Shown piece by piece: positions 3,954-64,000 of a stretch of 64,000 nt of DNA. The stretch's first letter is position 1; every line of letters begins with the position of its first letter. Under the pieces are notes generated by a model. The model was not told where the DNA came from and ran no database searches. It was given only the letters and a program-made list of their open reading frames with translations. Source of the DNA: Lacinutrix neustonica (GTDB taxonomy: Bacteria > Bacteroidota > Bacteroidia > Flavobacteriales > Flavobacteriaceae); contig NZ_CP113088.1 of NCBI RefSeq assembly GCF_026625145.1, positions 558,001-622,000 of the forward strand, read 5' to 3'. The translations under genes were made by a program, and so were the position numbers.

Positions 3954-3962
3954 GACACAAAT

Positions 3963-9203: not shown

Positions 9204-9233
9204 ACAGTTTTCCTCAGACTTTATATAACAAAC

Positions 9234-9267: not shown

Positions 9268-9285
9268 CGTGGTAAAATAAAAGTG

Positions 9286-37579: not shown

Positions 37580-37602
37580 CTAGGAATGAATCAAATTCCA
37601 CC

Positions 37603-37637
37603 AAAACCCTATAAACATTATGTTTATGGGGTTTTTT
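37603..37637 (+). terminator. Terminator after tRNA-Ser
   Basis: AAAACCCTATAAACA pairs with TGTTTATGGGGTTTT (one G-U), loop of about four bases, followed by T6. Confidence 0.8.
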
Positions 37638-37687
37638 AATTACCTCCTATATCAAACAAAACCATATAATATTAAATAAAAGGAGCT

Positions 37688-37731
37688 TGATTCGGTGCTT
37701 AAAATTACAAACAAAAATAAGCACCGAATCA
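37688..37731. repeat. Perfect 14-bp inverted repeat upstream of the integrase
   Basis: TGATTCGGTGCTTA (37688-37701) and its exact complement (37718-37731) are separated by 16 bases. It lies between the tRNA terminator and the integrase start and could be an operator, an attenuating hairpin or an integrase arm site. Confidence 0.7.
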
Positions 37732-37817
37732 TCTGTTAATAATTGATAATCAAACAGTTGATTGTTTTTTTATTAATATTTTTTTGTATCTTTAAGAGAA
37801 ATATAAAACAAGCACCT

Positions 37818-38750
37818 ATGCAAACTACATTTTCTGTATTGTTTTACCCAAAAGGAAGTAATATTGATAAAAAAGGTATGACTCCCATCTATTTGAGGAT
37901 TACGGTAAACGGCAAGCGCAGTGAATTTAGCATCAAACGAAAAGTACTATTGACTAAATGGAACTCTGAAGCAGGAAAGGTTCGCGGGACTACCGCTGAT
38001 GTTCGTGAGCTTAATAGATATATGGATGCTATTAAAGTCAAGGTACATAAGATCCAAGAAACCCTTTCGAAAAATAAAGGATTGATTACCTCCGAAATTA
38101 TCAAGAACATCTATCTAGGTAAAAATATAAAGCACAAAATGCTATTAGAAATCTTCCAAGCTCACAACGATAAAATTGAAAGACTTGTAGGTAAAGAATT
38201 TGCTCCTGGCACCATAGAACGCTACAAAACTGCAAAAAAGCACGTTTCAGATTACATCAACCTAGAATATCGCATAGCCGATATTCCTGTAAAAGATGTT
38301 GATCATAAATTCATTTCAGGATTAGAATACTACCTTAAAACAAAGCGCAAATGCGCTCACAACACAGCTATTAAATACGTCACTAACTTCAAAAAAATAA
38401 TTCGCATTGCATTTGCCAATGATTGGATAACCAAAGACCCTTTTATAAATTGGAAAGCAAAACTCAAAATCGTAGATCGAGAATTTCTAACTCAGGAAGA
38501 AATTCAAAAGATGGTTGAGAAGGAACTTCATGCAGAGCGTTTAGATCAGGTGAAAGATATCTTTATATTTTCTTGCTTTACAGGATTAGCCTATGCAGAT
38601 GTTAAAAAGCTTTCTAGAAATGATATAGTGATAGGTATAGATGGTGATAAATGGATTAAAATAAAGCGCTCAAAAACTGAAACACGAAGTAGCATTCCAT
38701 TATTACCTACTGCTCTTGATATTTTGGATAAATATAATGACTATTATTAA
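37818..38750 (+). pseudogene. Tyrosine recombinase / integrase, C-terminally truncated
   Basis: A Bacteroidota-type phage integrase remnant, 310 residues against the usual 400 or so. It has the arm-binding N-terminus (FSVLFYPKG, PIYLRITVNGKR), the SAM-like domain (about 110-210) and the start of the catalytic domain (REFLTQEEIQKM, SCFTGLAYADVKKL, KTETRSSIPLLP). The reading ends at DKYNDYY, before the HxxR motif, the second His and the nucleophilic Tyr, so it cannot recombine. The end coincides with the truncated end of a convergent RadC-like gene. A possible -7 box lies at 37787-37794. Confidence 0.85.
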
Positions 38751-40192: not shown

Positions 40193-40711
40193 CTACTCAT
40201 TTTGATTCTTCAATATGGATTTCAATTCGTTATTCATTTCGACTATAATTGAATCCCTATACACTTTTTTTAAAGCAATGTCTTCTAATTTATCTCCTTC
40301 CCTTAATTTAAAGAGTTTATTGTCGATTTTTATCAATATTAATTCAGAAGAACTATTTATTCCTTTAATTGTACCATAATATCTAAGCTTAGGCCATTTA
40401 ACAACTATACTTATTTTATTATTTAATGCTTTTTTTACATTCTTTTTGTCCGGTTTTTGTTTAGGCTTCCCTACCGTTACATTCACTTTTCTTTCTCTCA
40501 CTTTATCTAAAAATGGGTCTCTGTCAATTCTATTTAATTGAAAGGTGTCTTTAGACAAAGTTTGCAAAGAACTTTCTGCATAAATAACATCTTTCGAAAG
40601 GTAGGTTGTTTGATTATCTGCTTTAAAAAAATTAAATAGTTTGTATATAACGACTATCCAAATAGCGAACATAAAAACCATTAAAATAATATTTAGTAAT
40701 CGTCTATTCAT
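40193..40711 (-). CDS. GspC/PilP-like inner-membrane protein of the T2SS-like operon
   Basis: A 172-residue protein, last gene of the secretion operon. One N-terminal membrane helix (about 8-28) is followed by a periplasmic linker and a small beta-rich domain (about 105-165: YYGTIKGINSSSELILIKIDNKLFKLREGDKLEDI). That layout and pattern match the GspC homology region, which docks on the secretin N0 domain. Its ATG overlaps the stop of the upstream lipoprotein gene (TAATG). The assignment rests on architecture and position more than on sequence identity. Confidence 0.65.
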   Translation of the reverse strand: MNRRLLNIILMVFMFAIWIVVIYKLFNFFKADNQTTYLSKDVIYAESSLQTLSKDTFQLNRIDRDPFLDKVRERKVNVTVGKPKQKPDKKNVKKALNNKISIVVKWPKLRYYGTIKGINSSSELILIKIDNKLFKLREGDKLEDIALKKVYRDSIIVEMNNELKSILKNQNE

Positions 40712-41669
40712 TATTCTACAGTAAACTTTCTTGGTTCACTTGAAACACTTTCATTCCCTGCTTCATCCCTTGCTCTCACTCTCCAATAATAATCACCTAC
40801 TGAATTTATTAAAATCTGTTGAGATGTAATATTTGTAAACTCTGTTTGAATGATATTTGTAAAATTAATATCGGTAGCGATTTCAAGAACACTTGCTAAA
40901 GGAGAAAGGACTTCTCCTGAATCATTTCCCAAATCCCATACAAACTCTACTGTACTATTCGTAATTCCATTAGAATCGGAGTATTCAAAAAAGGTTGATT
41001 AGGAACTTGAGTATCTAATAAAATTTGTCTTGAAGAAAATTCAGTTTCGCTGTTTTCATTTACCGCTTTTATTTTCCAAGTATAAATTGCATCTTCCATT
41101 AAAATTGTTGAATTCAATGTATAACTATTATTAGTTAAATCGCCGATTTGAAAATCTGTAATGGTATTTCCTTGAACGGTTTTATCGACCTCTAAGCTAT
41201 ATGTGTCTGCTGCTTGAATATTATTCCAAGTTAATATTATAGTATCTCTATTGGTATAAAAATTTTGTGAAGGAGAATTTAAAAAAACCGTTTGAGTGAA
41301 CAAATCATTTGAAAAAATCACTGAAAAGGATGTAGGAAAATTATACGCCGTTTGATAAGCAAAATTTTCCGCCCTAATGCGCCAATTATAATTACCTGGA
41401 TTAAGGTTAAAAGTAAAACTATTACCGGTTACCAAAGAATCTAAAAAATTCCTTTGCGTGTTTTCTTCTACAACTTGAATTCTATAATTTTCGGCACCTT
41501 TTAAAGCATTCCATTTAAATTGAACTGAATTACCATTAATCACACTTTGGTTTTGTGGGGATGATACGGTCACCAAATCATTGGTTATATCTTCTTCAAA
41601 CACATCATCACACCCGATAATTAGAAATAACAAGGACGTAAATAACGATACACTAATTAATTTTTTCAT
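40711..41669 (-). CDS. Fibronectin-III-like lipoprotein in the T2SS-like operon (one frame error)
   Basis: A missing base at 40975-40980 is restored to give 319 residues. Signal peptide and lipobox (LFLIIGCDD), then three Fn3-like repeats, each with a W-x-x-x-x-A-xx-Y core: FKWNALKGAENYRIQV, LTWNNIQAADTYSLEV and a repaired third ending YYWRVRARDEAGN. Such repeats usually bind protein or sugar. Its place between the GspM-like and GspC-like genes suggests an outer-membrane accessory part, perhaps a pilotin or substrate receptor. This last step is inference. Confidence 0.7.
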
Positions 41670-41698
41670 AATTTTGAAATATTACTTTAACTCTTAAT

Positions 41699-42178
41699 TT
41701 ATTTTTTTGGGTCTCGGTATTCTTTTTCTTTTGAAAAGGCTATGCTAACAATATTGGATGACTCAAATTCTTTTTCAAACTCATATATTATTTCAATTAA
41801 AGAATTATAGTCTCCTTCTAGAATTAATTGATTTGTAATTATACTAAAACCATCACTTTCTGCGACATGTATTTCTTCCATACCAAATATACCTACTTTT
41901 TCAAATGAGGTGGTAAAGTTTAATATACTCTGCTGGACAATCTCTGGTTCCATCCCTTGTATTCCAATAATCCTATCATATAACTTTAATTCTCTTTCTA
42001 GCTGTCCAATATTTCCAGTAGAAGCATTTACATAATTCAATTTTTCTTTTAATTCGCCTATTTGAGTATACGCTTGCTTTGTTATTGTAAATGATCGCTT
42101 ATTAGCTGCAAAGAACAAAAGGAAGGCTACTATTCCTAGTCCAAATAATTTTTGCCTATATGTGAAGTTTGAAAACAC
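41699..42178 (-). CDS. GspM/PilO-like inner-membrane protein
   Basis: A 159-residue protein: a membrane helix (about 8-26), a coiled coil (about 35-65) and a ferredoxin-like periplasmic domain (about 80-155: QSILNFTTSFEKVGIFGMEEIHVAESDGFSIITNQL). This is the GspM/PilO plan. It follows the GspL-like gene by 16 bases, the order seen in T2SS and type IV pilus operons. Confidence 0.7.
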   Translation of the reverse strand: MFSNFTYRQKLFGLGIVAFLLFFAANKRSFTITKQAYTQIGELKEKLNYVNASTGNIGQLERELKLYDRIIGIQGMEPEIVQQSILNFTTSFEKVGIFGMEEIHVAESDGFSIITNQLILEGDYNSLIEIIYEFEKEFESSNIVSIAFSKEKEYRDPKK

Positions 42179-42194
42179 TATTTAATTATAATTT

Positions 42195-43358
42195 TTAAAG
42201 TAAACTTACCGATGTTTTTTCTTTTATTGCTATAGTCCGAATTTCAATTTTTGATATCCAAGTTTTCGTTTTTAAGTCCTTTACCCATGTATTCAATGGT
42301 AAACTTGAATCTGAATCGCCTTGTATCAAGATGGTATTTGGTTCTAAAATTATTTTTTCAGTGCGTTTGTTTTTATTAATTTTTGGATTGACTACCAAAC
42401 TCATTAAACTTATGTTATTTGGTATATTATTTACAATGTCATTAACATAAAAGGCAATAAAATTTTCTTTTAGCACTCTGCATTCTTGTAGTATAATAAC
42501 TTTATCCTGTCGTTCTGCCTCCAGTTTTCTAACCTGATTATAAGTGTGATTTAAATTATACAATTGAGACTCGTAAGTAATATATTGATTGTTGTAATAA
42601 TTTAACAACAAATAACTCGATAATAGTGCTCCCAAAAAAAAGATTCCCAAAAACGCCACAGAACTATTGAAAATCTTTTTTAATTTTAACTCCTGCTTAT
42701 TTGGTTTAAGAAATTCAAAATCATAACTAATTCTCTCGAAAGGATAAAGATGGTTTAATAATGTTGTAAATAGGGGTACTTGAGAACTACTGATTTTATC
42801 TTGACCAATAGCATAGTTGTCAATATTTTTGATGTCATTATTAAAATCCACTAGTAAATCTTCTTCAAAATTCAATTGAGAATCACCTGAAAAAAACAAT
42901 TCTTTATTCAATATTTTTTTTAACATTACCCCTACAAATGGACCAATACTATAATCTAATACCAAATAGTTATCTTTTCTAAATAAGCCAAATAAATTGT
43001 CTAGAACTTCTTTTCTAGCAATAGAAACAAACTCATATTTATCTTGATGTAATTCATAGATATAAAAATCTTCTGGAGATGCATTAAACAGAATCTCTTT
43101 TAAATAATTTACTTTATAAAGTACTTTTTTACTAACAACTCCTTTACCTGAAAAATTCAGAAGTATTGGAATTGACAGATCAACTTTCTCTTTAATTTTA
43201 TCGAAATGTTTTGTAGAAAATGAATCAATTATTGATAGATTATCTAATTTATTATCCAAAACAAGGATCTCATAAAAGGGTACTTCCCCCATTACAATAC
43301 CAATAATGGCAAATTTTTTCTCTTGGAAAAAGTTTATATTTTTTAGTTTATCAAACAT
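42195..43358 (-). CDS. GspL-like (fused PilM+PilN-type) assembly protein
   Basis: A 387-residue protein with a degenerate actin-like cytoplasmic domain (about 10-220), a membrane helix (about 237-257), a coiled coil and a periplasmic PilN-like domain. This PilM-PilN fusion is the hallmark of GspL and argues for a T2SS over a type IV pilus. GspL links the ATPase GspE to the membrane platform. The ATG overlaps the gspD stop by one base (TAATG). The frame is intact. Confidence 0.75.
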   Translation of the reverse strand: MFDKLKNINFFQEKKFAIIGIVMGEVPFYEILVLDNKLDNLSIIDSFSTKHFDKIKEKVDLSIPILLNFSGKGVVSKKVLYKVNYLKEILFNASPEDFYIYELHQDKYEFVSIARKEVLDNLFGLFRKDNYLVLDYSIGPFVGVMLKKILNKELFFSGDSQLNFEEDLLVDFNNDIKNIDNYAIGQDKISSSQVPLFTTLLNHLYPFERISYDFEFLKPNKQELKLKKIFNSSVAFLGIFFLGALLSSYLLLNYYNNQYITYESQLYNLNHTYNQVRKLEAERQDKVIILQECRVLKENFIAFYVNDIVNNIPNNISLMSLVVNPKINKNKRTEKIILEPNTILIQGDSDSSLPLNTWVKDLKTKTWISKIEIRTIAIKEKTSVSLL

Positions 43359-45258
43359 TAATATACTACTGTAGGTTTTATAAATACGTGTAGTTTAGAT
43401 TTTTGTTTTCTTTTTATTTTACTGCTAAAAAACCATTTTATAACTGGTATTCGGATAAAAAAGGAGTTCCAGTACCTGAATTTTCTCTTTCTAATTCATC
43501 CAATCCGCCTAATAAGATCATTTCTCCGTTTCTAACCCTTACCATAGATTCGAACTGTTGTGTAGATTTTCCTGGTGGTGCGTTTTCTCCCGCTCTACCC
43601 AAAAACGCACTTTTTTCGACCTCAATGATTAGTGTAATTTGCTCATCTTTAGACACAAAAGGTTTTATATTAACACTCAAATTGGCATCAGTAGCCTTCC
43701 ATTGTCCAGATTGTAAAATATCATTACCTAATCCACTATTAATCAACCTATTGTTTTGTTCAAAATAATAACTCGTTTCACCAATAGAAAGCTTGGCTTC
43801 GTGCCCGCTTAGAGTTGATATTTTTGGAGTAGATTGTAATCGAATTATAGAATTGTTTTCTAATGCCTTTAAATTGAGGTAAAAATCCTCTGCAACTTTT
43901 CCTAAATTAAAAATACCAAAGCCGTTGAATGCATCTATCAAATCATTTACAGAAGAAGAATTGAGAGTGACATCACTGGTAGGAAACAATACTCCGGAAG
44001 TTGTTCTGTTTTGCTTATCGATACCTGCCTGTATACCTGTTTGTATTTCATGTCCTTTTTGATATTGTACTATGAGCACTTCAATAAAAATCATAGGAAT
44101 AACCTTATCAATTTGCTTTATATATTCTTTCAATTCCTCTATTCTAGGCCTAGAACCGTGAGCTACAAAACCATTGAGTTCTATAAACTCCTTTAGTTCT
44201 ACATTTTCTGTTAAATCTTTCGGCAATGTTTCTATTACAGTTTCGATGGTTCGATTTTCTAATTGAATGAGCTCTGTACTTCTTAAACCTTCTGAGTTTT
44301 GATCGCCTATAAGATAAAAATCATCTGTTTTTTTATAAGTACTCCTTTTTCCTTTGAACACATGATCCAAAAGATCATCAAAGGTTATGTTATTGACCAC
44401 CAAAGAGGTTTGATCTTCATCTGGTTTTGCATACAAAAAGTAGTTAATATTTAGCTTCTCTGCAGCTTCCATAATTAAATCTGTTATAGAAGCATCAAAC
44501 GCCTTTATACTTAAAAACCCATTTTGCTGCACAACTATTTCGGAAGAAGACTCTGAACGCTTTGAACTCTTATTTTTTGAGTTACTCTTTGCTAAACTTT
44601 CATTTGCTACTGGTGTCCGAATATCCTTTTCTACATAATAAAAATCATTCTCATCCTTAGTGATTAGTAGTTGATTAGACTTGGCCATCATGTCCATAAC
44701 TTGATCAAACGGTCTATTAAGGATATAAGCCGACACCCGCTCTTGCTTTACCTCCGGTGCAAGGACTATACTTTTTCCCGAGACATCCGTAATTTTTTGA
44801 ATAACACTTGGTAAAGAATCATTTTTTAAATTAATTGTGAGAAAGTCATTGAGGGCATTATAAGTCACTTTAATTTCTTTCTCAAGTTTCTTTTTAGGTT
44901 CTTCTTTAATTTTTTGTTGTTTTTTAAATACTATAATATTATTTATATACTCGATATTTAGATTGTATTTTTTAATCACAAACAGAAAAACATCTTTCAC
45001 AGGAATGTCAAAAAAACTACTAGAAACGACTTCGTTTAAATCAGAATCTACACTAATATTTAATTTATGTTCTATAGCTATTGAAGTTAAAAAGTCATAA
45101 ACTGTAAGACCTGACACATCTATCTGGATCGTTTCATACAGTGCAGGCTTATCTATCGCATATTCATTTAGTTGTTTCTCTATATTTTCGATATCGCGCT
45201 GACCAAAAGAAAGTTGTATGCTTAAAATTAATAAAAAGTACAGTAATTTTTTTTTCAT
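43358..45258 (-). CDS. gspD: Secretin, GspD/PilQ family (one frame error)
   Basis: The outer-membrane secretion channel, 633 residues after restoring a base at 43451-43455 (tcgga for tccgga). Signal peptide (ending SFGQ), then three STN/secretin N-type domains (about 30-110, 125-215, 240-325), a further N-domain with the RPRIEELKEYIKQID hinge, and the secretin core: PMIFIEVLIVQYQKG, VLFPTSDV gate region, QSTPKISTLSGHEAKL, VRVRNGEMILLGGL. Repair completes the end, PFLSGIPVIKWFF followed by a KLHVFIKPTVV strand. Confidence 0.9.
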
Positions 45259-45260
45259 AT

Positions 45261-46677
45261 TTATGAGTTAATTAACAAAGAATAAATCTCTTCAAGAGAA
45301 GTTTCTCCTTTTTCAAGAAGGCTAAATGCTTTACTTGAAAGACTTCCGTATTTGTAATGTAAATTTTGTTTTAATAGATGAGTATCATCTTTAATAGCTC
45401 TCATGACGTCCTCTGTCACTGGCAGTATCTCATAAATAGCCCTTCTTCCTTTATATCCAGTATAATAGCATTCCTGACATCCACAGGCTATGAAGTGGGT
45501 TTTTAGCGATCGTGGTAATGAATAGCTTATAGGAAACTCATTGTCATCTAAAGTCGCTTCCAATTTACAATGGTAACACAATGTCCTTACCAATCGTTGG
45601 GCTACTGATACATTTAAAGTTTCTGCGATATAGAAGGCTGGCACTCCCATATCTACGAGTCTCGAGATTGTTCCTAATGCCGAATTTGTATGAATAGTAG
45701 ACAATACCGAGATGTCCTGTTAGCGATGCTCTAATAGCCATTTGAGCCGTTTCTGCATCCCTAATTTCACCAAGCATAATGATGTCAGGATCTTGACGCA
45801 AAAACGATCGTAAAGCAGCGGCGAACGTTAATCCAATATCTTCTTTTAATTGCACTTGATTGATCCCTTTTAAAGTATATTCTATTGGGTCTTCAACAGT
45901 AACTATATTTCTTTTAATATCATTAAGCAGCTTGAGTGTTGCATACAAAGTAGTTGTTTTTCCAGATCCAGTAGGACCACTAATTAAAACAATACCATTA
46001 TTCTTTTTTACAGCTTCTAGATAAATTTCTTTTTCTTCACTTTCAAACCCTAAGTCCTCAAGATTGATATTAGAGGCATCTTTTCCTAATAAACGCATAA
46101 CCACTTTTTCTCCATGTAGTGTTGGAAGTATAGACACACGTACATCAAAACTATCATAATTGATGCGGCCGTCTTGTGGGAGCCTTTTTTCAGTAATATC
46201 AAGATTAGAATCAATCTTAATTTTATTTATTAATTCTAAATAATTCTCTTTTGGAATTTTATATTTTTCTACTAATACCCCATCTATTCTTAATCGAGCT
46301 CTAGCTTCTTCTTCAAATACTTCAAAGTGTATATCACTACTACCAATCGCTTCAGCTTCAAATATTAGATCTTCAAGAAAATTATTGTCTTCTGCCGAAC
46401 CAGTATTTACTAAGGCTTGATCTGAATCATTCTTTCTATAGTAAACAAAGAGCGCTTTATTTAATTGTTCTGACTCAATTTTCTCAAATGTTATTGATTT
46501 ACCTAAGTATAATTCTAACTCCGCTTCAATATCAGTGCTCCATTTCTTTTTATCAATATATAATTGCAACTGTTCTTTATGGTTATTTTTAGGCACTATC
46601 CTGTAATGATGTGCCATATCTGTACCAATAAGCTGTTGTAATTCTACAGATATTTGTATGTCTCCTTCTATTTTCAT
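45261..46677 (-). CDS. gspE: GspE/PilB-type secretion ATPase (one frame error)
   Basis: The cytoplasmic motor of the T2SS, 471 residues once the insertion at 45707-45712 is removed. N-terminal domain about 1-100; the ATPase core has Walker A GPTGSGKTTT, the Asp box EDPIEYTLKGINQVQ, Walker B DPDIIMLGEIRD and the His box TGHPVLSTIHTNSA. A zinc site is made by CYHC and CGCQEC. No PilT-type retraction ATPase is in the operon, which supports secretion rather than twitching. Overlaps gspO by 4 bases and lies 2 bases from gspD. Confidence 0.92.
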
Positions 46678-47159
46678 ACTATATTTCCGTAAAAAATATT
46701 AATAGGAAAAAGGAGATCAGAAATCACTAATACAATAATATATAATGATAAATATCCTGCCAAGGGAATGGTGTTCTGAGAATATTTCCTGTAAAAAATC
46801 CCATATAACGTAAGCGTAAAGATCATTCCTGTTATAAAAAACAACATATAATTTCTAAATGTAAACATTGGAATCACACCTATCAAAAAAATTAAATCTC
46901 CCCACCCCATGTGCTTTTTAAATGGATTTATTAACTGTGCCTCTTTTACTGAAAAGTAACCAATAATGCACGCAAAATTAATTACTAAAAAGGCTATTGA
47001 TTTTATAATATCAATCGCATTGATCCAGCTTGTATTAAGATAAAAGCTGAGTAAGAATATCAAAATAGGTAGACTGACATGTATATGTCTAAATTTTAAA
47101 TCTTGATATACGATTATCCCAAAAAACAACACTAAAAAACAGAGTATTATAAATTCCAT
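46674..47159 (-). CDS. Prepilin peptidase, minimal GspO/PilD type (A24)
   Basis: A 161-residue, six-helix aspartic peptidase. The first catalytic Asp is in IVYQDLKFRHI and the second in HMGWGDLIFLIG (the GxGD motif). It lacks the N-terminal methyltransferase domain and the zinc CxxC pairs of E. coli GspO (about 225 aa), so it may cleave without N-methylating. It should process the neighbouring pseudopilins, whose predicted sites have Ala before the cut. Confidence 0.82.
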   Translation of the reverse strand: MEFIILCFLVLFFGIIVYQDLKFRHIHVSLPILIFLLSFYLNTSWINAIDIIKSIAFLVINFACIIGYFSVKEAQLINPFKKHMGWGDLIFLIGVIPMFTFRNYMLFFITGMIFTLTLYGIFYRKYSQNTIPLAGYLSLYIIVLVISDLLFPINIFYGNIV

Positions 47160-47581
47160 TAGTCTCTAACCGTTTCTTTTAAAAGTTTATTATGGTCAAT
47201 TTCCCAAGTATTGAAATTCCCATCACCATCAAAATCTGATTGAGAAACGGCTTTAGCTCTGAATGTATTTGTTGAAGCTTCAATAATTTCAATTCTATAA
47301 ACAGCCTGTCCTCCTTCATTTACTGATAACGCAGGCTCAAATCCTAAAGCTTCAAAATCGTTAGTATACTTAGAATATCTAAAAAAATGACTTTTTTCCA
47401 ACCCATATAAGTGATTTAACATACTCTGAGCCTCAATTGCTTTAGCTTGTGCTACTATAGACGTTTGGTTAGGTAATACTAACAAAATCAATATGCCTAT
47501 AATACAAAGCACTATGACTAACTCTGACATCGAATAAGCCTTTGCATACCCTTTATTTATAATTTCTCTTTTATTTTTCAT
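47159..47581 (-). CDS. Major pseudopilin, GspG-like
   Basis: A 140-residue type IV pilin-like protein. The ATG at 47581 (MKNKREIINKGYAKAYSMSE) is preferred over an upstream open stretch. Prepilin site: KGYAKA^YSMSELVIVLCIIGI, with Glu at +5 and Ala at -1. A 20-residue hydrophobic helix follows. Near the C-terminus DFDGDGNFNTWEID is an EF-hand-like Ca2+ loop, echoing the calcium site of GspG. Overlaps gspO by one base. Confidence 0.82.
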   Translation of the reverse strand: MKNKREIINKGYAKAYSMSELVIVLCIIGILILLVLPNQTSIVAQAKAIEAQSMLNHLYGLEKSHFFRYSKYTNDFEALGFEPALSVNEGGQAVYRIEIIEASTNTFRAKAVSQSDFDGDGNFNTWEIDHNKLLKETVRD

Positions 47582-47591
47582 TTTCTTATAT

Positions 47592-48724
47592 TTAAGAAGG
47601 TTGAATAATTTTACTAAGGTCAAACATGGGAGAATACATTGCAATCAAGACGGTACCTACCACTATTCCAATAATCACAATAATAAGCGGTTCCATGACA
47701 ACACCAATCATCTTTGTTTGATGTTGCACTTCTTCATCATATTGCTTTGCCAAGCGCTCAAACATCGCATCTAGTTCATTTATTTGTTCTGCAACACTTA
47801 TCAATGAAATTAATTTAAAATCATAAATACTATGTTTAGATAATGCTTTAGAAAACAAACCTCCTTTAGTGATTTCAAGCTTTACACTCTCTAGACTGTT
47901 CTCCGGAGGATAAAATGCTATCATTTTTTGAACCAAATTTAAGGCATTCACTAATGGCGTCTTTGCGGCTAATAATAGACTCATAGATTGACAAAACCGA
48001 GTAATGTATATTTTCTTTATTAGTTTTCCAAAGAAAGGAAGTTTGATTACTATATTACTAAGATATTTTCTATATACGTTGTTATTTTTAAAATAAACAT
48101 GTAATCCAATTATACTCAACAGGAAGCCTATAAATACTAAACTAAAACTCGAAAAATGTTCAGATACGTAAATAATTTTCTTTGTAAGACTAGGTAACTC
48201 TTTCCCAAATTGTTTAAAAACCGATGCAAACATAGGTACTACATATTTCATCATAAAATATAATACACCAAAGGTTAGTAGTAATACAAATGCAGGATAG
48301 GTAAAAACAGATAATAGCTGACGTTTCATTTTTACTTTTCTATCAAAAAATTGGTGTAATTCTAAGAGCACTTCACCTAGTTTTCCGGTTTCTTCCCCAA
48401 TTTTTATACTGTAACACTCATATGGAGTGAACTTCCCGATTCCTGTAATGCTTCAAACAAAGATTTTCCTCGTACCACTTGTTTTGTTATGGAATGCATT
48501 AAGTCTTTATGTTTAGCTTTCTTTTGTTGTTCTTTCAAAATTTCTAAAGCTTTTCTAAAATCGACTCCTGAATTTAATAAAACGGAAAACTCTTTATAAA
48601 GCCCCATCTTATCTTTATCAGAAAAATGATTTCCAAAACTTAATTCTCCGGAAAAAAAATTGGTTCCTTTTTTTGATTTAAGGACGGTTTTTTCTGCTTT
48701 ATATGTAGATATATTAATACTCAC
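47592..48724 (-). CDS. gspF: GspF/PilC-type membrane platform protein (one frame error)
   Basis: A missing base at 48434-48438 is restored to give 377 residues, beginning at a GTG at 48724. Two GspF repeats: the first with FSVLLNSGVDFRKALEIL, KQVVRGKSLFEALQES and the repaired YSIKIGEETGKL; the second with SMSLLLAAKTPLVNALNLVQKM and EVQHQTKMIGVVMEPLIIVIIG. Three membrane helices are present. Typical size is about 400. Confidence 0.9.
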
Positions 48725-49208
48725 CTAAAAGATAGTTGTTTAACCGTTTAGCTAAGGTTATTTTCTTTTCTTCAAAAACGATAATATCTTGTCCAAGCAA
48801 TGTCGTTTTTAATCGAATGACTTGGTAATGCTCATCTATACTCTCTTTAGCGTTTAATTCCAGCTCTTTAACATTGATATTAAAAGTGTCTCGGGTTTTT
48901 CCTTGTCTAATAACGTGACCATTTGCAAAGAAATATTGGATATCTTCTTGTGCCATTAACAATTTTACACGCTTTGGATCAACTGGCATCAGTTCATTAC
49001 ACAGCCTTATATCTGCTGACCATATATTTTGAAACTGATTATATTCCATTAGTTCAGATTGTTGTTTTGAATATTCCACTATTTGTTTAGAAATGTTGGT
49101 ATAAATAATATAAACCATCGATATGACTATAGAGGAGATTGCTAATCCTATAACCAATTCCATTATAGTAAACGCCTTAAGGCTAATATGTTTCTTAGTA
49201 ATTAACAA
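48714..49208 (-). CDS. Minor pseudopilin, GspJ-like
   Basis: About 164 residues. The signature is KHISLKA^FTIMELVIGLAISSIVIS: Ala at -1, Phe at +1, Glu at +5. Start is uncertain: the frame is open to 49256, and TTG at 49208 gives a short leader as expected. It overlaps the upstream pseudopilin and GspF genes at both ends. The J-like label rests on operon order and size. Confidence 0.75.
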   Translation of the reverse strand: MLITKKHISLKAFTIMELVIGLAISSIVISMVYIIYTNISKQIVEYSKQQSELMEYNQFQNIWSADIRLCNELMPVDPKRVKLLMAQEDIQYFFANGHVIRQGKTRDTFNINVKELELNAKESIDEHYQVIRLKTTLLGQDIIVFEEKKITLAKRLNNYLLGEY

Positions 49209-49536
49209 TATATTGATACTTCTTTTTAGAATTATGTGTCGTGACCACAAATACAATTTTAAAACTCGAATCGCTATCCAACTCTTCTACTCTTTTTTGA
49301 ACTTTAAAAGATTCAAAATTATAATCTATGTTTTCAATTCGTTTTTTTATTTTGGTTTCTAATAATAATTCCTTGACTTTCTGTTGTGACTTATAGAAAG
49401 CTATATTATGATCCGTTTGTAACACTCTACTGTAGGTTATAATAGCTATAGTAAGACATGTTGCAATGATTGACATAGCAATTACGGTCTCTGTAATAGA
49501 ACTCGCTTTAAAATTACATTGGTTTAATAGCGCCAT
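49195..49536 (-). CDS. Minor pseudopilin, GspI-like
   Basis: A 113-residue protein beginning at the ATG at 49536 (MALLNQCNFKA^SSITETVIAMSI): Ala at -1, Glu at +5, then a hydrophobic helix. Small size and position before the J-like gene favour GspI. It overlaps the end of the K-like gene by 23 bases. Confidence 0.75.
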   Translation of the reverse strand: MALLNQCNFKASSITETVIAMSIIATCLTIAIITYSRVLQTDHNIAFYKSQQKVKELLLETKIKKRIENIDYNFESFKVQKRVEELDSDSSFKIVFVVTTHNSKKKYQYIVNY

Positions 49537-50753
49537 ATAATCGGTTGTGGTTATGTTGAAAAAGCGGAATTCTAACAAAATCATTGGGAAGGTTTTTCCT
49601 GTCAATCATTCCGTTCATAATGTAATTATCATAGGTTGAAGCTTCTGTCTTGAGATAAAAGCTACTCGTATATACGGTTCCAATAATCTTACCTGTTAGT
49701 TGAATCTTACCACTACAAAACACATCACCAACAACTTCAGCCTTTTTATCTATTTTAATTATCTTATGGGCACTCTTATCTTGATCATAAACCACAACAG
49801 CTCCCAAAACCTTACTGTTTTTTTTTAATCTTACTTCTTTTTTCTCTGAAACGCCCTTATTTATTAAGATACCCGAAGGATATTTCAGGATCACATCTTC
49901 GTTTAATACTACTAATTGCTCTGCCAATACCTGCACACTTCCCTGAAAACCGGTTTCGAACACAACTTTTGGCGCCTTAATAATAATATTATCAAGGAAA
50001 TTATCTTTCTTTATATAGATAGAATCCTTAGATTCTAAAATAATATTGCCAGTAAAGTGATTTTTGTTGTAATAAAACCTCTTTGATATTAATAACTAAA
50101 GTTTTTTCAAAAAAACTCTGATAGTACCTCACTGAATCCTTAAGTTCTTTATAATTCATCCTGTCGAGTTCTTGATTAGCATAATCAAAAACAGAGGGGT
50201 TTATCTCTCGTAAGCTAGATTTAGAAACACTTTTGCTTCCTGATAAATACTTAGTGTTTCGATAGGCATTAGAGGTAATATACCCCTCTTTTATACCTTT
50301 TTTAGGTAAAAAAACATTACCGAGAATTTGAGCATCATCCACCATAAATAGCGCTTTACTATTATCTGTTAAATATAATGCCAAGGCATTGTCTTCTTGC
50401 TTTTCTCCAATCAACATGGATTGCCTTATCGTATCATTCTTGAACCTCGAAGCTGTTAGTAAAACCTTATAAAACCCCCAAGGTAACACCACAGCAGAGG
50501 ACATTATCCCGTTATCAAAAAGATCTGTAGAAGTGTCTTCCTCTTCTAGAGTATCAATATGATTTAAAAAGTAGTGTTGTGCAGATTCATTATTAGAAAT
50601 TAACTCAGTATAGGTCAATAACATCGTTTGATGTATTCTTGAATAACTACTCATAATCACTAATGAGTAACAAAATATCCCAACTACAATACAAATAAAG
50701 ATAGCATAAGCTATAGATCCCGCTTTAAGCATTTTATTTATCTTTTCTACCAA
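49514..50753 (-). CDS. GspK-like pilin-related protein with bactofilin-like C-terminus (one homopolymer frame break)
   Basis: The frame breaks near 50068-50075, where the minus strand has four T and three are needed; corrected length is 412. The N-terminus MVEKINKMLKAGSIAYAIFI has a KA cleavage-like site and a membrane helix but no Glu at +5, as in GspK, the tip pseudopilin. It is the largest pilin-like protein of the set. The C-terminal 150 residues show short repeating beta strands (KVLGAVVV, AEVVGDVFCSG, GKIIGTVYTSS) like a bactofilin beta-helix. GspK proteins are not known for this, so the label is tentative. Confidence 0.6.
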
Positions 50754-51483
50754 ACAACCTTTTAAAAAAACTAGGGTTATTGTTCGGCTTATTGTTAGGT
50801 TTATTATTTGGCTTCCTCTTTGGTGTTTTATTATTTACAACCTTCTTTCCTTTTTTAGAATTTGTTTTATTTAATGTATTATCTCTTTCGGTATTCTTTT
50901 TAACCTGTTGCTCTTCAGTCTTATCTCTTTTTAAGAAAAATCGTTTAAAAAAATGAGGTTTAGAAACCTCCTTATCCTTCACTACTTTCTCTCCTTTTTT
51001 ATAAAGGATGGTATCTCCTTTCACAGGATATATCCATAGTCCTGATCGCAAACCGTTTTTATATTTTCCTTTGGAAATAAGGTTCCCAATACTATCCTGA
51101 AATGTATTTTTACCGGATTGTTTCCCATTTACCCATCCTTCAGTAGTCGCTATTTGTCCGTTTTTATACCAAGAAATCCAAATACCTGTTTTTACTCCCT
51201 TATTAAAATGTCCTTTCTCAGCGAGTTGATTGCTGTAATAGTACTTAAGATATTCACCATCTAACAAATCTCCAGCATAATCTCCCTGGGAGCTGTGGAC
51301 TTTCTGAGATTTAAACCAATAATACCTTTTAGTTAATTTAGCATTTGGTGCTTGGCTAGTAATATTAAAATGTTCTTTATATTCTGTATTACTGATAACT
51401 TTTTTTGTAAAAGGTTCATAAGTACTTTTACAACTTACTATACAAATGAAGACTACAGCAATATATATTAGTTTACGCATCAT
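50734..51483 (-). CDS. MORN-repeat (YwqK-like) lipoprotein
   Basis: A 249-residue lipoprotein (lipobox IVSCKS). Residues 60-165 contain four MORN_2-type repeats such as GEYLKYYYSNQLAEKGHFN and GIWISWYKNGQIATTEG. The C-terminal 90 residues are very basic with NKP repeats, and the motif FFKR(F/L)F occurs twice. MORN_2 proteins are usually outer-membrane associated in Bacteroidota. It overlaps the K-like gene by 20 bases, so it belongs to the secretion operon. Confidence 0.8.
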   Translation of the reverse strand: MMRKLIYIAVVFICIVSCKSTYEPFTKKVISNTEYKEHFNITSQAPNAKLTKRYYWFKSQKVHSSQGDYAGDLLDGEYLKYYYSNQLAEKGHFNKGVKTGIWISWYKNGQIATTEGWVNGKQSGKNTFQDSIGNLISKGKYKNGLRSGLWIYPVKGDTILYKKGEKVVKDKEVSKPHFFKRFFLKRDKTEEQQVKKNTERDNTLNKTNSKKGKKVVNNKTPKRKPNNKPNNKPNNNPSFFKRLFGRKDK

Positions 51484-54168: not shown

Positions 54169-54423
54169 TTAATTTAACCAAATAGTAGCGTATGAAAATG
54201 CGGGTAAGCTATTATCGTTTATATAATTATAACGTTCTGCACAATGGGGCGCCATGTGCGCCACATTATGGTATGTTATAAATACACTTGTCGAAGCGGG
54301 GTGACGCACGACTACGGTTTTCGCCTGTGCATCTATAGGCGTAATGGCATCATCATTAACTAATTCTAATCCGGGTATTAATGCGCCCTGAGTATCATAG
54401 AGTAACAATACAGAGGAACGCAC
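54169..54423 (-). pseudogene. Partial duplicate of the rhs gene
   Basis: An 84-codon fragment whose first 40 residues (SVLLLYDTQGALIPGLEL, AKTVVVRHP) nearly repeat part of the giant RHS protein at 58575-58705. The DNA match covers about 115 bases. The rest (FITYHNVAHMAPHCAERY...) is a diverged form of the same region. It has no plausible start of its own, so it is a remnant of a displaced rhs copy. Confidence 0.75.
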
Positions 54424-54542
54424 GAGCGAGACGCTCGCGCTAGCCGTTACTTATCTTTGTTTGCGATGCTCGGGTATTATAAAACAAAAGGCTATCTTTT
54501 TCAGTAACCTTATACTTATTTTCATCATAACTCAAAATTATA
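54424..54542. other. Junction region with inverted repeat
   Basis: Directly at the end of the rhs fragment is gagcgagacgctcgc (about 54423-54438), a GC-rich palindrome in AT-rich surroundings. It could mark a recombination or repeat-element insertion point. No gene is seen. Confidence 0.4.
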
Positions 54543-56229: not shown

Positions 56230-56320
56230 TTTGCGATCATAATTTATCTAAATTAATTTCAATAAAGGATTCACAGTGATCGGCGATTTCTTACCATAAA
56301 ACTAAAAAAGCATATTCATA

Positions 56321-56351
56321 AAAAAAGCTACCCTATTTGGGTAGCTTTTTT
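56321..56351 (-). terminator. Terminator of the rhs - membrane protein unit
   Basis: AAAAAAGCTACCC and GGGTAGCTTTTTT with a five-base loop, 30 bases past the stop of the small membrane protein. It separates that unit from the barstar gene, which then needs its own promoter. Confidence 0.85.
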
Positions 56352-56380
56352 TATTTTGTTTCTTATTATCAAAACATTAA

Positions 56381-56689
56381 TTAATCAGATAGTGTATTTT
56401 TCTTTGTAAAGAATAGCACACTAAATATAATGAAACTTAATACAGAAATAGGGACGTGTACAAAATATAAAACCCCTAAAACCATTAATTCTAAATCAAA
56501 ATATACAAGAAGAATTAAATATATCATATAAAACGCAAAACAGAATAGAGAAGTAATTAATCCTTTAAAATAAAGTGAAACTTTGCCATTATACTTCGAC
56601 CTTATCTGTTTTGCTAAAAAATAGAAACTAAGTGGTATTAAAACAAATAGTATAACAACAAGTATGTTAAAGATTATGTATTCTTTCAT
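56381..56689 (-). CDS. Small membrane protein, possible RHS immunity protein
   Basis: A 102-residue protein with three predicted helices (about 5-25, 40-62, 68-93) and a short charged tail. No family recognised. It lies 11 bases after the rhs stop codon and before the terminator, the usual place for the cognate immunity gene of an RHS effector. That would suit a tip domain acting at the membrane; this is inference. Confidence 0.65.
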   Translation of the reverse strand: MKEYIIFNILVVILFVLIPLSFYFLAKQIRSKYNGKVSLYFKGLITSLFCFAFYMIYLILLVYFDLELMVLGVLYFVHVPISVLSFIIFSVLFFTKKNTLSD

Positions 56690-56700: not shown

Positions 56701-59700
56701 TTAATCAATTTCTCCTTCTTCTGACTCTATTAATTTCCCTTTACCCATTGAACCTTTTGGGTCATATTCAAACTTCTCTATTTTTTTTGTAACAGTCGTT
56801 TCTTCCTCTGTTTTATTCAAAAATTCTCTTACAGTACCCATAACTATTTCCCATTGCTTAACTTGCATTATTCTAGAAGGCCCTATCTTACTTAAACCAA
56901 AAGATTCTCTTGTTTCTGTGAGAACATCAAAAGAGACCTCTCCTGTTTCCTCATCAAATGATCCGAAAAATTTAACATAACCTGCTTCCGGATGACCATA
57001 AAGTGTTGCAAATGTTGCTGAAAATGAATTTGTTTTATCTTCAACATTCATAACTCTAACAAAAGCAAATAAAATAGGAGCTGTTGGTTTTATAGCTATC
57101 TCATCACCCATTGAAATTTTATCACCTTTCATTTGAGCTGGAAAATAGATTGCTAGAGGGTTATTTGTTATCGTTTGAGGGCTCTTTAAAAAAGTTTCTT
57201 TAAGATTAGAGAATTCTTGATGATTACCTAAAACCTTTAAAGTAAATAATTGAGTTTGTACGTTTCCAAATGCATCATCAACAGTTTTAATTTTTAAAGC
57301 ATCAACTCCATATCTAGTGACTATAGCATTTGCATGTATATTTTCAGCCTCCAAACCTTCTAATTCGACAGCATCTATAACACGATTCTCACTAAATGCA
57401 TATGGCGAGTTATGTGGATATTTTGATGCTAGTGGGTCAACAGCGAAGAAACGACCAACACGTGGGTCGTGCATACGGAACTTATAATTGATACTATTCC
57501 CTTCCCCTTTAATCTCATCATCCTTCTCCTGTCCTTGGAAGCCGTATCTATATGATTTCGAATCTTTATGCCTACCAGGTTGTAGCATTCCAAAAGCATA
57601 GTAGTTGTTATAACTTTCTACATTGGCTGTCAAGTCGCCAGTCGCAGGATCCGCATTTTTTCTATCGCCTACTACCGTTCTAACATTACCTAAGTGATCC
57701 TTGATCTCATAGTATTTATGCCCTATATTTCTATAAACAATACCATCTGTAGCTTCTTCTACTGCTTTAAGGATGGTATAGGCTTGATACGGCTGGTATC
57801 CTGTACTACCTGCTGTAGAGGCTGGTAGGTTGTTTAGCGCTGTAACGGTGCGGGTATCCAGATTCCATTCTTGCCCACTATCTGTCGTGCTTACAAACTG
57901 GTACAGCTTATCGTCTTTGTTAATTCTAAGATCACCAAAGCCACCAGTCGCTACTACCGCTCCATTAGAGGCTTGTTTTACAACCTTATTATCGGTACTG
58001 CTTGATACTTCTTGGGTATACTGTGTATAATAGATCTCATCTCCCGTATTTATCAAAGAACCTTTACCTATATTACCATTAACTACTGGCGTGATTACTA
58101 CGCTCGTTACCTCTGGCAATCTGGTCTCTGCATCCAGCTGCCATGTGCGAATTTCTGCTGCTGCATTGTCTGTCCACTGCTCTGGTAACGACGTATTGTG
58201 ATAGATACTAATGGCACTACCATTTAAGGCGATTTGTAATTCACCATTACCTTCACTATCAAAACTATCGAAATAAGCTGGTAACAACGCACCATCGAAG
58301 GTCACTGCTCCCGCTTGGTCTATAGTAAAGCGTACCAGGTTTATTCCTGCTGGTGTGCTTATTGTCCCACCGTCTTCAATCACCGCTGCACTATGCATGG
58401 TGGCATAAAGATACGCCTTTTTTTGTAGTTCATCCTGGATCACCGCCATATGACGCCCGTAATTACTATAGGCAAAATTCTCATGCTTAGTAATTGTTAA
58501 ACCGCCTGAGTTACGCAAGGTCGCGCAATGCAATCCTGCCGCTCTATCTCTGTAAAATAATAAATACTCCGTTGGGTTCGATGGGTGACGCACGACTACG
58601 GTTTTCGCCTGTGCATCTATAGGCGTGAGGGAATCATCGTTAATTAATTCTAATCCGGGTATTAATGCGCCCTGAGTATCATAGAGTAACAATACAGAAC
58701 GATCGGGGTCTGCACTAAAATAATTACGGGCAACCAAGCCATAACTAATCACCTCGCCTTGGCTATCTTCAATCAAGATCACGTTGTTACCTGAATGGAT
58801 TGGTAATACGGCAGCATTGTCTTGCTGAGGCTCATACTGCAATGCATTAAAGGCCTTGTTCGCTTTTGCTTTGGCTATGGTAGTGGCTTCAATTTGTATG
58901 GTCCCCCCATTAACATCGGTAAGTTCCTGGTTATTATTTTGTACTAACAATACATTGCCTAACGCATTGGTAATGCTGCTACTAAAATCTACGGCAATCT
59001 CTTGATACTGTTCTATGCCATCAAAACCATAGGTTCTTGTATACACCACTTCTTCAAATACATCTTGTCCTACACGATCACTACCATAAATAGGTCGCTC
59101 TGTAATACTAAAGGTCGCAGTATAAACAGTATCGTTAGCATCATTAGGGTTTGCTTTTTCATCTTCACGCTTATAAATACCCATGACGTTACCAGGAGGC
59201 ATCATAAGAATAATAAGTGGTCTCTACCGCTGCTGGGTTATGAATTTGTGGCCCCTCTCCTGCAGTATTATAAGGCAAACGGTTTACTTGTTTTACGGCA
59301 CGCATACCCATACCTGTATAGGTGATGGACATGTGTACTTTTTGAGTATCTCGGATTGTTAGTGTTATCAGGAATGATTTCTGATACTTTTCCTGACGCA
59401 GTCCACACGTAAGTTAGGCCTTCGCTATAATCGCGAATCAATTGACCCGTTTCATCATACTCGTAATTGCCATCAGTTTGATTAGGGAGATCATTGATCT
59501 CTGCACTAATCGGCCGACACCATCGTTTACGTGGGTTAACCTATTTGAGAGATTAGGACTAGTCAGGTCGTAATGGTACTCCAAATCGTCCATTAACAGC
59601 CCATCTTCCTTATAACGCTTTAGGGTTTGTAGATTTCCGTTTTTGTCATAACTATAAGACGTCTTAAACGCATTGGCATTACCGTCTATAGCATCATAAC

Positions 59701-62700
59701 TTTCATTTGTGTCACTGTATAAGGCAGTAGTAGCCGTTTTAATGCGGTTTAACTGGTCATAACGGTAGGCATTTCCTGTAAGGTAACTCGCCCTGTTCTT
59801 CTCTTTAGCTTCTTCTGCAATTTGAGACGTCCAGGTACTAATATTACCATTATACAGGTTTTGCTGTACCCCACCTACTTGGTTTTGTAGGTTAAACGGA
59901 TTGGCTGCGGTTAAACCTGAGTTTAATACGCCTTCACGCGTAAAGTCTCCTTGGTAATACCCCAAAGCCATCCCAAACTCATCTTTGGCATGCTTTGTAG
60001 GGCTGTCGCCACGGTTGTTATTCCCATCCGGGTTATAGGCATTCTGCTCTAAGTTTGGTGTGTTAATTCCCTTTAACCAGCCGTGAATAGTATAGGTATA
60101 GTCCAAGCCTTGTATCTTGTCTTCTCCTATTTCGGTTCGCATTAACGGTCCATGTAGGTAATAATCATAACGCGCATCTTCATCCCGGATATAGCCATCT
60201 TTAGATGTTTTTACAGCTATAATCCTATTATCTTCATCGTAACTATATTGATGACGGTATTCACCTATTTGTCCCTTATTAAAGTGTACTTCGTTAACAT
60301 TACCTGAAATTAAATCGTAGCTATAGGCTACTGCTGTTCTTCCTATTCCTGGTAGTTCCTGGATACACCATTCTACATTGCCATGTGGATCATAACTATA
60401 ATAGGTTTTAGTAACCGCTCCATTTTTATCTTTATTATTAATAAAACTAACCTTGTTTCTTAAAAAACGTTGGGTCTGTCCCAAATAGTTGATCTCCTCA
60501 ACCTTATCATTATAGGTGGTCCGGATGTATTCTACCTTATCTGCGTCTAGAATACTTAATGCTACTTGCGGATTGGCCTGGTTATTTACTAAGAAATCTT
60601 CTCGGAAAACTGTTTCCGTTCAATTTTGCTTCTCCTCCTTCAAGCACGCGCCCCAACTCATCATAGATTACATAGGAGTATACTTGTTCTCGAATCTGCC
60701 TCTCATTCTGAGAGTACCATAACTGCCCAATATTATTATATACAAACTGAGAACGTCCTCCGTCCGGGGTATTCTGATTTGATAATTGAGAGATACTATT
60801 ATAATCGTATCCAGTAACGTAAGTATGTGCAGTGGCTACGCGATCATTAACCGTTTGTACGCCTTCTGGTGGAACAGTTCGTACCAAACTACCAGCTCTA
60901 TCATAATAATACAACGTAAAATGGTAAACATCACTTACGCCTTGATTGTATTTTAACAAGACAGCATCATCTAGTGCATCAACATCATTAATTGCGGCAT
61001 CTACATTTGCTTCTAGTTGTAGTTTACTATCAACCACACAACGCTCTACATTAGCAGCTATGGCTTGCCTAAAATCTGAGGGGCCTAACGGTGGTATTTC
61101 TTTAGTCTCATCCTCTGCTTCTGGTTCTGTTTCTAATATTACTGGTGATTCCCAACTTAAGCATATATTATAATTACGTGCTACTGGTGGTTGTGTTACC
61201 GCTGTAACAGTAGTTTCGGTAGTACACCCATTAGCATCGGTAACTATAACCATATAATTCCCTGCTAAAATGCCTTCAAAACTTGAGGTTTCTCCATAGG
61301 CTACTTGTTCTTCATACACTAATACCGGTACTTGTTCAATAACAGGATCTCCATCTGCTATAATAATTTCTTGTTCTATTATTTCATACCAAGCAAAAAC
61401 ATAAGGAGCCGTTCCTGACGTATATCCGAAGCTGTCCCTCCTAGGGTTCCTGAACCAGACACCGCATCACAGCTGGTCTGTATATCTTCAATAATAGGGA
61501 TCTCTAATGGAGCAGGATCTTCTAAACTAAAAAGTATAGGATCTGTACTACCACAACCACTCGCATCGGTTATAATCACCTTATAATCTCCTGCTAGTAA
61601 TCCCGTAGCGCTATATCCTAAAGAAATAACCTCTCCTGTTGTTACATTTAGCCATTGGTAACTAATGGTCCCTGCGCCTCCAGTAACGATGACATGGGCA
61701 GTACCACTAGCGTCCCCGAAACACCTTGGATCCTTAGACACCACTTCTGCTGTAAATTTAGACTTAGAAGTAATCTCAAAGAATAGTTTAGCTTCACAAG
61801 AAGCAATATCATCTGGATAATTACTCACCGAACTTGGTAGTACACTTACTTTATAACTACCTACCCCAACATCGGTAAGCTCTAATGTGGCCCCTACATT
61901 GTTAAAAACTTGGGGGCTACTTATAAATTCTTGATTGCCATCTACCAAACCAAAGAAAACGGTGTAAGACTCTATTTGAAAATTAGTACATTGATTGATA
62001 TTATCAGCGATTGTTACTGTAATATTACGAGTGTCATTCGAAAAGCATACTTCATAGAAATCGGATCGGTGTCATTAGCAATTTGAGGAGACAATTGTAA
62101 CACCCGTGGTCTGAAAGCTCGGTATAGGTACATCCATTTTCTGAAATGATCTCTAAGACATAAATGGCAGTCGATGTCACATTAGCTAATTGATGGATTT
62201 GAGTATCTGTAAAGGTCCCTGTAAAGGTCACAAGGTCCTCATTAGATCCTGAAGAAGCTTGGTAGATACGTCCTGTATAATTAGTGCCTGTTACTGCGGA
62301 ATGCACATCTAAAGTTCTAAAAGACAGCTCTATATCTCCACTCGTAGTACCACAAGCTAATAGAGTGGTACATAAATTAGCAATAGGATTATTAACTCTT
62401 GGTATATATATGGTTTTCTCGAAAGTACAGCCATAATTATCTTTTATAGTGACACTAAAATTCCCTTCAGGAAGATTGTCTATGATTAGTGTTTCACCAT
62501 TCTGTAATTCTTGACCAATGGTCACTAAATCGGATAGGTTGCATTAATAACTTCAAACGGTGCCTGATCTACATAGCCAGTACCCTGCTCTCCACTTATA
62601 ACAAGAGACACTTGACCATCTGCCTGATCTGTACAACTTACGCCTTCTATTAACGTCATGTTAAGTGTAGCGCCTGGATAAACCTCAATATCAATAGTAG

Positions 62701-64000
62701 CCGTACCACTACAGTTAGCAGCTGTATTGGTAGCAGATTGTACTGTAACCTGCAATTGCGTACTATTAAAAGGATTAAAAGTAAATTGATTGCCATTAGT
62801 AGAAACAGGCGTTACATTCCAATTGTAAACATAAGAACCCCCACCAACTGTTCCGCTGAGCAACACTTCTACTACAATAGCCTCTCCTTCACAGACAGGG
62901 AAATTAGTTAAAGGATTGATAATTATCTCTCGGAAATGGCGTATTTAAAACTTCAATAAAACCTTCTGCGGTGGTTACTTTAAGATCACACACCTCATTA
63001 TTTTCTAAGCAGGTTGCTTGTCCGTTCCGGATCGTCTCTACATGATACTCTAAGCTTAAACTATTAACATCTATTAGTCTAGTATTAATTTTAAAGGTCT
63101 GTGTGGTAACGGTTTCTAAATCGGTAAGTTCCAGCTTACAGTTGTAGGTGTCGTTGTATTAGGTGGAGGAAATCCTGAAACAGAACTCTCAAATGCCACT
63201 CCTACTGGCAGGGTAAGTACTAATTGCTGTTGAGCAATCGCTTCGGTGCTATTATTATTTACAGTTATAGTGACTTCATTAAAATCATCACAAACTAAAA
63301 AATTATCTGCTAAAATATCAACATTTAGATCGGGCAATACTAAACCTTTAATTGGAATATAACGTCCCAACTCTAAACTTATATTTTCTGAACAGTTTGT
63401 AATTCCGTCTAGTGTAAATTTTACTGGCTTACCAGGATTATAATTACAATCTGAGTTCAAGCTTAATTTAAACGTGATTTCGTTTTTACCTGTTAATCGA
63501 ATCCCTGGTATCGTACTTTCTGTAGCATCAGTAATATCACCGAAGCTACTAATAAAGAGGTTACCAAACCGGAGGCATCGATCTTAACATCTTCTATATC
63601 TGAGATGTTTTGTAGAATAAAACCAGCGGGCACTTGTGTATAAGGTGCTCCATCATATGTATAACTCCATTGCGCAATATCGGTAACGCTAACGCCTTCT
63701 GGTAGATCGACACTAACGGCAACATCGTACACATTGGCAAACTTGGCACTTACTACTTTAATTTCAAATTCTGTAGCTTCACAAAGTTCTACTTCATCTT
63801 GTACTCTATTTACTTCCCAATCTAAATCACCTGTCTTATAGCGAAGTGTTACAATATCTTCAATAACACCAAACTGGCACGATAAAACACCGCGAGTCGG
63901 TAATTGAGTTAACCGCCAAAAGTTCGGTGGTCTCATCGTAAGAAGTGCCTTCTAATGGAAATGTATCACAAGACCAGCTGGAAATGAGATTAATATTTTG
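56701..64000 (-). CDS. Giant SprB-repeat / RHS protein, C-terminal part (runs off right edge, at least eleven frame errors)
   Basis: One gene of more than 7.3 kb, split by TCCGG errors at 59192, 59349, 59510, 60600, 61425, 62061, 62118, 62531, 62933, 63120 and 63540 (starts approximate), and perhaps two more near 63920. In protein order: DUF11-like beta domains (64.0-62.6 kb), SprB-type repeats (about 62.6-61.2 kb, e.g. GDASGTAHVIVTGGAGTISY, LLAGDYKVIITDASGCG), RHS/YD repeats (61.0-57.4 kb) and the core end DHLGNVR, YGFQGQEKDDE, FRMHDPRVGRFFAVDPLA, NSPYAFSENRVIDAVELEGLE. The last 200 or so residues are a variable tip with no family I recognise. Probably a secreted adhesin or toxin delivery protein. 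Confidence 0.85.

Follow-up and report, generated by a model that had tools for sequence, protein, structure and literature searches.

Do the broken reading frames at one end of this stretch encode a single giant protein, and how might the toxic tips of such proteins be varied and released? The stretch (the window) is 64,000 nucleotides of Lacinutrix neustonica (GCF_026625145.1, NZ_CP113088.1, positions 558,001 to 622,000), part of a single 3.9-Mb contig of 84% completeness. The first-pass annotation proposed that one very large protein, starting outside the window, joins DUF11-like domains and SprB-type repeats to an RHS shell and a variable tip, and that it is a surface-tethered or gliding-linked RHS effector. 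The giant hybrid gene was confirmed. Its interpretation was only partly supported, as the joining of these domains in one protein holds but the gliding link is not supported. Comparison with relatives showed that the tip sits at a recombination site and that the recurring neighbor is a type II secretion system (T2SS). Genomes and loci are designated below by G and L numbers, respectively; G000 is the present genome and G084 is the nearest relative (locus L022).

The giant gene and its domains

The gene lies on the minus strand and extends beyond the window to about position 67396, starting about 3.4 kb outside it with MKNFYTLLFLGLSLLGYSQ (signal peptide by inspection only). The homolog in G084 is one open frame of 3,299 codons from stop to contig end. 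A tblastn search with this protein (3,290 aa used) aligned residues 1 to 3290 over window 67396 down to 57535 in ten main pieces, in order, with at most 19 query residues missing between pieces and nine frame changes, about 0.9 per kb; compensating shifts inside a piece were not counted. The T2SS genes next door showed 0-1.9 changes per kb, while the value of 4.19 for the nearby FG-GAP gene is inflated by its repeats. The breaks are therefore most likely assembly errors. A genuine stop or start between the SprB and RHS parts had been named in advance as the result that would overturn the single-gene reading; none was found, as both parts lie in one open frame in G084.

From the N- to the C-terminus, the protein comprises the signal peptide, DUF11, a long unassigned region, one SprB repeat, RHS repeats, a long unassigned segment, the RHS-associated core and the tip (Table 1). 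RHS repeats and core are both present, and a tip follows a core that is shared with relatives. Only one SprB repeat passed its cut-off (a second had E=0.061), and the clear DUF11 domain (E=1.5e-7) is N-terminal and outside the window, inside which only E=0.08 was obtained. The NCBIfam MurB hit (22.1 bits, cut-off 277) and the Pfam Sh_2 hit (18 bits, cut-off 27) were set aside as sub-threshold. The G084 frame has DUF11, one SprB repeat and a sub-threshold RHS_repeat hit; it is cut at the RHS head, so its tip lies on another contig. A phmmer search of the RHS frame (56704-59205) against PDB returned a single weak hit, the 3,398-residue protein SGS4 (9on3_A, E=0.0029), a giant of similar size. 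Upstream lies a second giant gene with a sub-threshold DUF6443 match. Eight giant loci (L022, L025-L027, L029-L032) show a small ORF of 141-269 codons just before the giant gene B, with another large gene before it in most.

The tip itself was found in no other of 395 genomes of the order. By pairwise blastp, a headless tip in the G084 array is related (32% over 114 residues, E=4e-13 against that one sequence). A single-sequence AlphaFold2 model of the unbroken window frame gave a pLDDT of only 33, so no fold search was run. The ORF after the tip has three hydrophobic segments, while the tip has none at the same threshold; its function was not assayed, which leaves its role as an immunity gene undecided. 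DUF1990 includes Oep23, a cation channel of the chloroplast envelope (PMC4331141).

Table 1. Features of the locus, in window coordinates
Coordinates	Strand	Feature	Support
56701..64000	-	Giant RHS protein B, C-terminal two thirds, in about a dozen broken frames	
61637..61741	-	Single SprB repeat above cut-off	41.9 bits; E=1.3e-9
59438..60619	-	RHS-repeat region	PF05593, E=6e-6
57800-58800		Long segment before the RHS core, about 300 residues; part of it is the stretch copied as a fossil at 54226-54450	No Pfam match
57355..57603	-	RHS-associated core, the conserved head shared with silent cassettes of relatives	TIGR03696 (Rhs_assc_core), E=4e-9; residues 535-617 of the frame
57584..57606	-	Counterpart of the relatives' recombination site at the YYAFGML codons	The only copy in this genome with up to 3 mismatches to a 32-base pattern at 57564-57595
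56704..57348	-	Toxin-like tip; DUF1990 match at about 56881-57120	Residues 696-775, E=2e-6, 28.4 bits (cut-off 23)
56381..56689	-	102-aa ORF starting 11 bp after the tip; candidate immunity gene	Three hydrophobic segments (3-TM)
56282..56365		Fossil similar to non-tip DNA of the G084 cassette array	87-bp alignment at 88.5%
54226..54450	-	Fossil: partial copy of the giant gene	116 bp at 95.7% identity (54299-54414)
50734-51483		MORN-variant protein with a lysine-rich tail	Homologs recur between T2SS genes and RHS heads in many relatives; role unknown
40193..50753	-	T2SS-type cluster: secretin 43438-45258, ATPase E 45261-46677 (two frames), F 47592-48724 (two frames), pseudopilin 47159-47644, A24 peptidase 46674-47159, PilN-like 42195-43358; further ORFs unassigned	Secretin, E and F over cut-off; A24 peptidase just under (23.9 against 26.5); pseudopilin by a weak ComP_DUS hit and homologs
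37495-38750		tRNA gene directly followed by a tyrosine integrase of another type; possibly the edge of an integrated element	About 28% identity to the RHS-linked recombinase

Tip cassettes and a tyrosine recombinase in relatives

The C-terminal frame hit 42 of 149 genomes of the family, mostly through the core. Near giant genes, or on contigs of their own, lie short ORFs that begin with the same RHS head and end in different tips; many have stops or unrelated DNA just before the head. The 135 complete tips from the recombinase loci form 115 clusters; tip ORFs that were cut, held X, or had under 130 aa after the head were left out beforehand. These tips hit 30 Pfam families at E<=0.001, among them PT-HINT, GH-E, WHH, LHH, Ntox21, Ntox35, Ntox43, Tox-PL-2, colicin DNase, RES, lysozyme, CHAP and YkuD. 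A same-strand ORF of at least 80 aa directly follows 127 of 135 tips, against 11 of 135 on the opposite strand. Of 18 pairs of related tips, six join an expressed and a silent tip, five of them in different loci.

A tyrosine recombinase (PF00589) sits beside these arrays. At E<=1e-30 it was found, in single copy, in 7 of 149 family genomes, all 7 among the 42 with RHS heads. In 67 aligned recombinases, R177, K204, H290, R293, H316 and Y326, the usual catalytic set, are each conserved in at least 65; a phmmer search of the recombinase against PDB returned no hit. A scan of GTDB contigs gave 70 loci, of which L122 (a spurious 20-residue match) was dropped. Of the remaining 69, 62 hold at least one head, at a nearest distance of median 1.47 kb and maximum 4.9 kb; four of these (L086, L094, L095, L120) hold only a head fragment. 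The head profile was built from 33 heads of earlier loci, and some of the 69 contigs are those same contigs (L075 has the length and coordinates of L023; L053 and L069 likewise match L028 and L025). In all seven loci without a head (L059, L061, L081, L089, L108, L115, L118), the recombinase lies within about 1.3 kb of a contig end. Some RHS cassettes or operons (L033, L036, L126) lie beside sets of three genes that include two different tyrosine recombinases, which looks like another mobile route for tips.

In total, 133 heads point toward the recombinase and 19 away. Where the recombinase lies between a giant head and an inverted head, its strand relative to the giant gene is the same in 7 loci and opposite in 8, whereas outside the pair it is 9 same and 0 opposite (Fisher p=0.0095; p=0.019 without L080, whose giant frame has only 244 aa before the head). 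A flipping segment predicts this pattern; five of the nine outside cases are related Chitinophagaceae/Bacteroidetes MAG loci, so these are not nine independent cases. Four more loci (L068, L069, L107, L121), all same-strand, had a giant frame but no inverted head and were left out of this test. No flip was seen directly: in eight pairs of loci compared by blastn, none showed one segment inverted between matching flanks, and no population reads were examined. Seven contigs (L075, L083, L085, L088, L090, L101, L105) have inverted heads within 450 bp of both ends, as repeats that break assembly would give.

The recombinase was also sought in 296 genomes drawn from the phylum, and four have it at E<=1e-40. 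All four hold RHS heads in the stretch examined around it. In single-contig G305, the site of the giant gene and an inverted silent site share the same 32 bases, with the recombinase between them and T2SS-cluster genes next to the silent head. In the two distant genomes G638 and G562 (42% and 36% recombinase identity, respectively; G638 was not analyzed further), the site differs, and the heads of G562 all lie on one strand.

The tip junction

Giant and silent heads of the same genome were aligned on the PFG codons (24 loci, 33 pairs). Identity was 0.25-0.55 upstream, 0.88 in the last 6 bp and 0.98-0.99 at the site, falling to about 0.6 near +100 bp. Third codon positions at the site were 0.95-1.00 identical, against 0.33-0.71 between genomes. 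Individual alignments mostly showed a left edge at GATTACTAT and, in the most diverged pairs, a shared block of about 20-24 bp, ATTACTATCCnTTYGGnATGCT; a few silent heads (L067, L070, L097) lack the left arm. This block can be read as two imperfect 11-bp arms around about 5 bp. In G084, the end of the giant contig equals one end of the 14.6-kb array contig exactly (77 bases), and the other end, inverted, likewise shares its terminal 77 bases exactly with the start of the contig that carries the FG-GAP and T2SS genes. The order there is giant gene, site, array with recombinase, inverted site, T2SS.

State of the locus in this genome

The present genome is syntenic with G084 on both sides, yet only 2.7 kb remain between the tip and the FG-GAP gene, with the copy of the giant gene listed in Table 1 and short stretches similar to the G084 array. 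A single site was detected in this genome, and neither a recombinase ortholog nor silent heads were found. The best reading is that the switch was lost here, or is missing from a poor assembly; the tip appears locked.

Linkage with a type II secretion system

The neighboring cluster contains the secretin, E ATPase, F platform, pseudopilin and prepilin peptidase of a T2SS. Its secretin was found in 31 of 149 family genomes; 28 of these have RHS heads, against 14 of the 118 others (p=1.1e-16, not corrected for relatedness). The head search scored at most six candidates per genome, and 18 of the 28 genomes with both could be placed on one contig from the tabulated matches, while the other ten could not. 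In all six single-contig genomes with both, secretin and nearest head are 10.7-27.9 kb apart. In G113 the two operons are divergent neighbors, and in G148 one response-regulator gene lies between them. Of the 42 RHS genomes, 14 have no T2SS hit, among them single-contig G142 and G134, which has recombinase and cassettes; conversely, G049, G075 and G125 have the T2SS without an RHS hit. In the 69 recombinase loci, 12 show T2SS D, E, F or G within a flank of at most 10 kb, which is a lower bound.

Discussion

These results suggest, with moderate confidence, that the gene encodes the toxin-bearing subunit of a secreted RHS polymorphic-toxin system made of two giant proteins (A upstream, B here). 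In this view, B enters the periplasm by its signal peptide, folds as an RHS shell around the tip, and is most likely carried over the outer membrane by the nearby T2SS; it would then deliver the tip to competing bacteria while the small membrane protein next door protects siblings. In the wider family, the tip would be exchanged by a dedicated tyrosine recombinase at a ~22-bp site inside the conserved NDYYPFGML codons, where inversion between the site in B and an inverted silent head swaps which tip-immunity cassette is fused to B. Whereas the single hybrid gene rests on direct alignment, the switch is well supported by comparison but was not observed happening, and export, delivery and protection are inferred. 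T2SS export is considered slightly more likely than not. That the tip attacks membranes is a tentative first guess, a weak inference that no structure supports and that rests on the DUF1990 match and the hydrophobic segments of the candidate immunity protein.

A bolder reading, about as likely as not, is that of a widespread Bacteroidota weapon: giant two-part RHS toxins exported by a linked T2SS, whose toxin-immunity tip is reprogrammed by a recombinase that inverts cassettes at a site hidden in conserved core codons. A clone would then be a mixed population armed with different toxins, and some lineages, like this one, would have lost the switch and fixed one tip. If true, this explains how RHS tips are exchanged so cleanly in part of one phylum, by site-specific inversion rather than rare homologous recombination. 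It also gives an exporter candidate for Bacteroidota RHS proteins that have a signal peptide but no recognized T9SS tail; both ideas are testable in culturable marine strains.

Among the alternatives, it is possible that the T2SS is not the exporter, and that RHS and T2SS genes merely share a variable genomic island while the RHS proteins leave by another route or on lysis. The genomes with only one of the two systems favor this view, a Bacteroidota T2SS was tied to cellulose use in Cytophaga (PMC5553014), and only linkage was examined here, not export. However, the linkage holds with two diverged secretin groups (52-80% and about 36-41% identity to the present one) and in six of six single-contig genomes.

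It is unlikely that tips are exchanged by ordinary homologous recombination in the RHS head, as proposed for Salmonella Rhs, with the recombinase a hitch-hiking mobile gene. Recombination of orphan tips onto the main gene is known (PMC3967940), heads stay 0.6-0.9 identical for about 100 bp past the site, and several silent heads lack the left arm. Against this stand the sharp left edge, the short shared block in the most diverged pairs, the single-copy recombinase with RHS heads in 7 of 7 family genomes, and the strand pattern.

It is equally unlikely that the gene in this genome is a real pseudogene: it has nine or more frame changes and fossils next door, but the adjacent T2SS genes show changes as well and the tip frame is open for 834 codons. 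Least likely is a surface-tethered or gliding-linked effector using T9SS: besides the SprB and DUF11 matches, only the FG-GAP gene nearby, which ends like a T9SS substrate by inspection, points that way, whereas the protein lacks the many SprB repeats of a gliding adhesin, no T9SS sorting domain was listed for the C-terminal frame at E<=0.1 (an internal piece has a sub-threshold Por_Secre_tail hit, E=0.024, 14.6 bits against a cut-off of 23), and Pfam searches of two more giants (L025, L032) listed no SprB or DUF11 at E<=0.01. The many-repeat SprB hits lie elsewhere in the genome, at 1594-11117 and 3892528-3902051 of the contig; the same hits appear at both ends with the same spacing, so the circular contig probably keeps a redundant overlap.

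Comparison with known systems

Literature searches showed no paper that joins RHS tips to a tyrosine recombinase, or RHS to T2SS in Bacteroidota, and none on DUF6443, although description in print elsewhere is not excluded. The T2SS of Cytophaga hutchinsonii likewise belongs to Bacteroidota and has D, E, F and G, but it is tied to cellulose use and Rhs is not mentioned in that text (PMC5553014). Tse5, a T6SS Rhs pore-forming toxin, is similar in that an RHS shell delivers a membrane-directed tip (PMC10684867); it is a T6SS effector, and the tip here is DUF1990-like and was not tested for activity. Oep23, the plant DUF1990 channel, conducts cations in bilayers but is not a toxin, and the relation rests on one Pfam hit (PMC4331141). 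In Ornithobacterium hominis, of the same phylum, an rhs gene of >9 kb has displaced tips and immunity genes (PMC6421346, PMC13183296); the accounts examined describe displacement and T6SS delivery and name no recombinase or T2SS for RHS, and its genome was not tested here.

Enterobacterial Rhs loci have a main RHS gene plus silent tip-immunity fragments without starts, and recombination activates an orphan tip (PMC3967940; cf. Jackson 2009); there, homologous recombination over 522 bp is involved and there is no T2SS, whereas relatives of the present gene have a dedicated recombinase and a short site. The R64 pilV shufflon has a tyrosine recombinase, inverted sites and partial C-terminal gene segments, but varies a pilus adhesin on plasmids, not a toxin tip with immunity genes (PMC3414803). 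As in a shufflon, the relatives have a recombinase beside the varied gene and inverted short sites with a sharp edge, while in this genome the recombinase and a second site were not found. The system in relatives combines two known kinds of system in a new way, and the gene in the window is a member whose tip appears locked.
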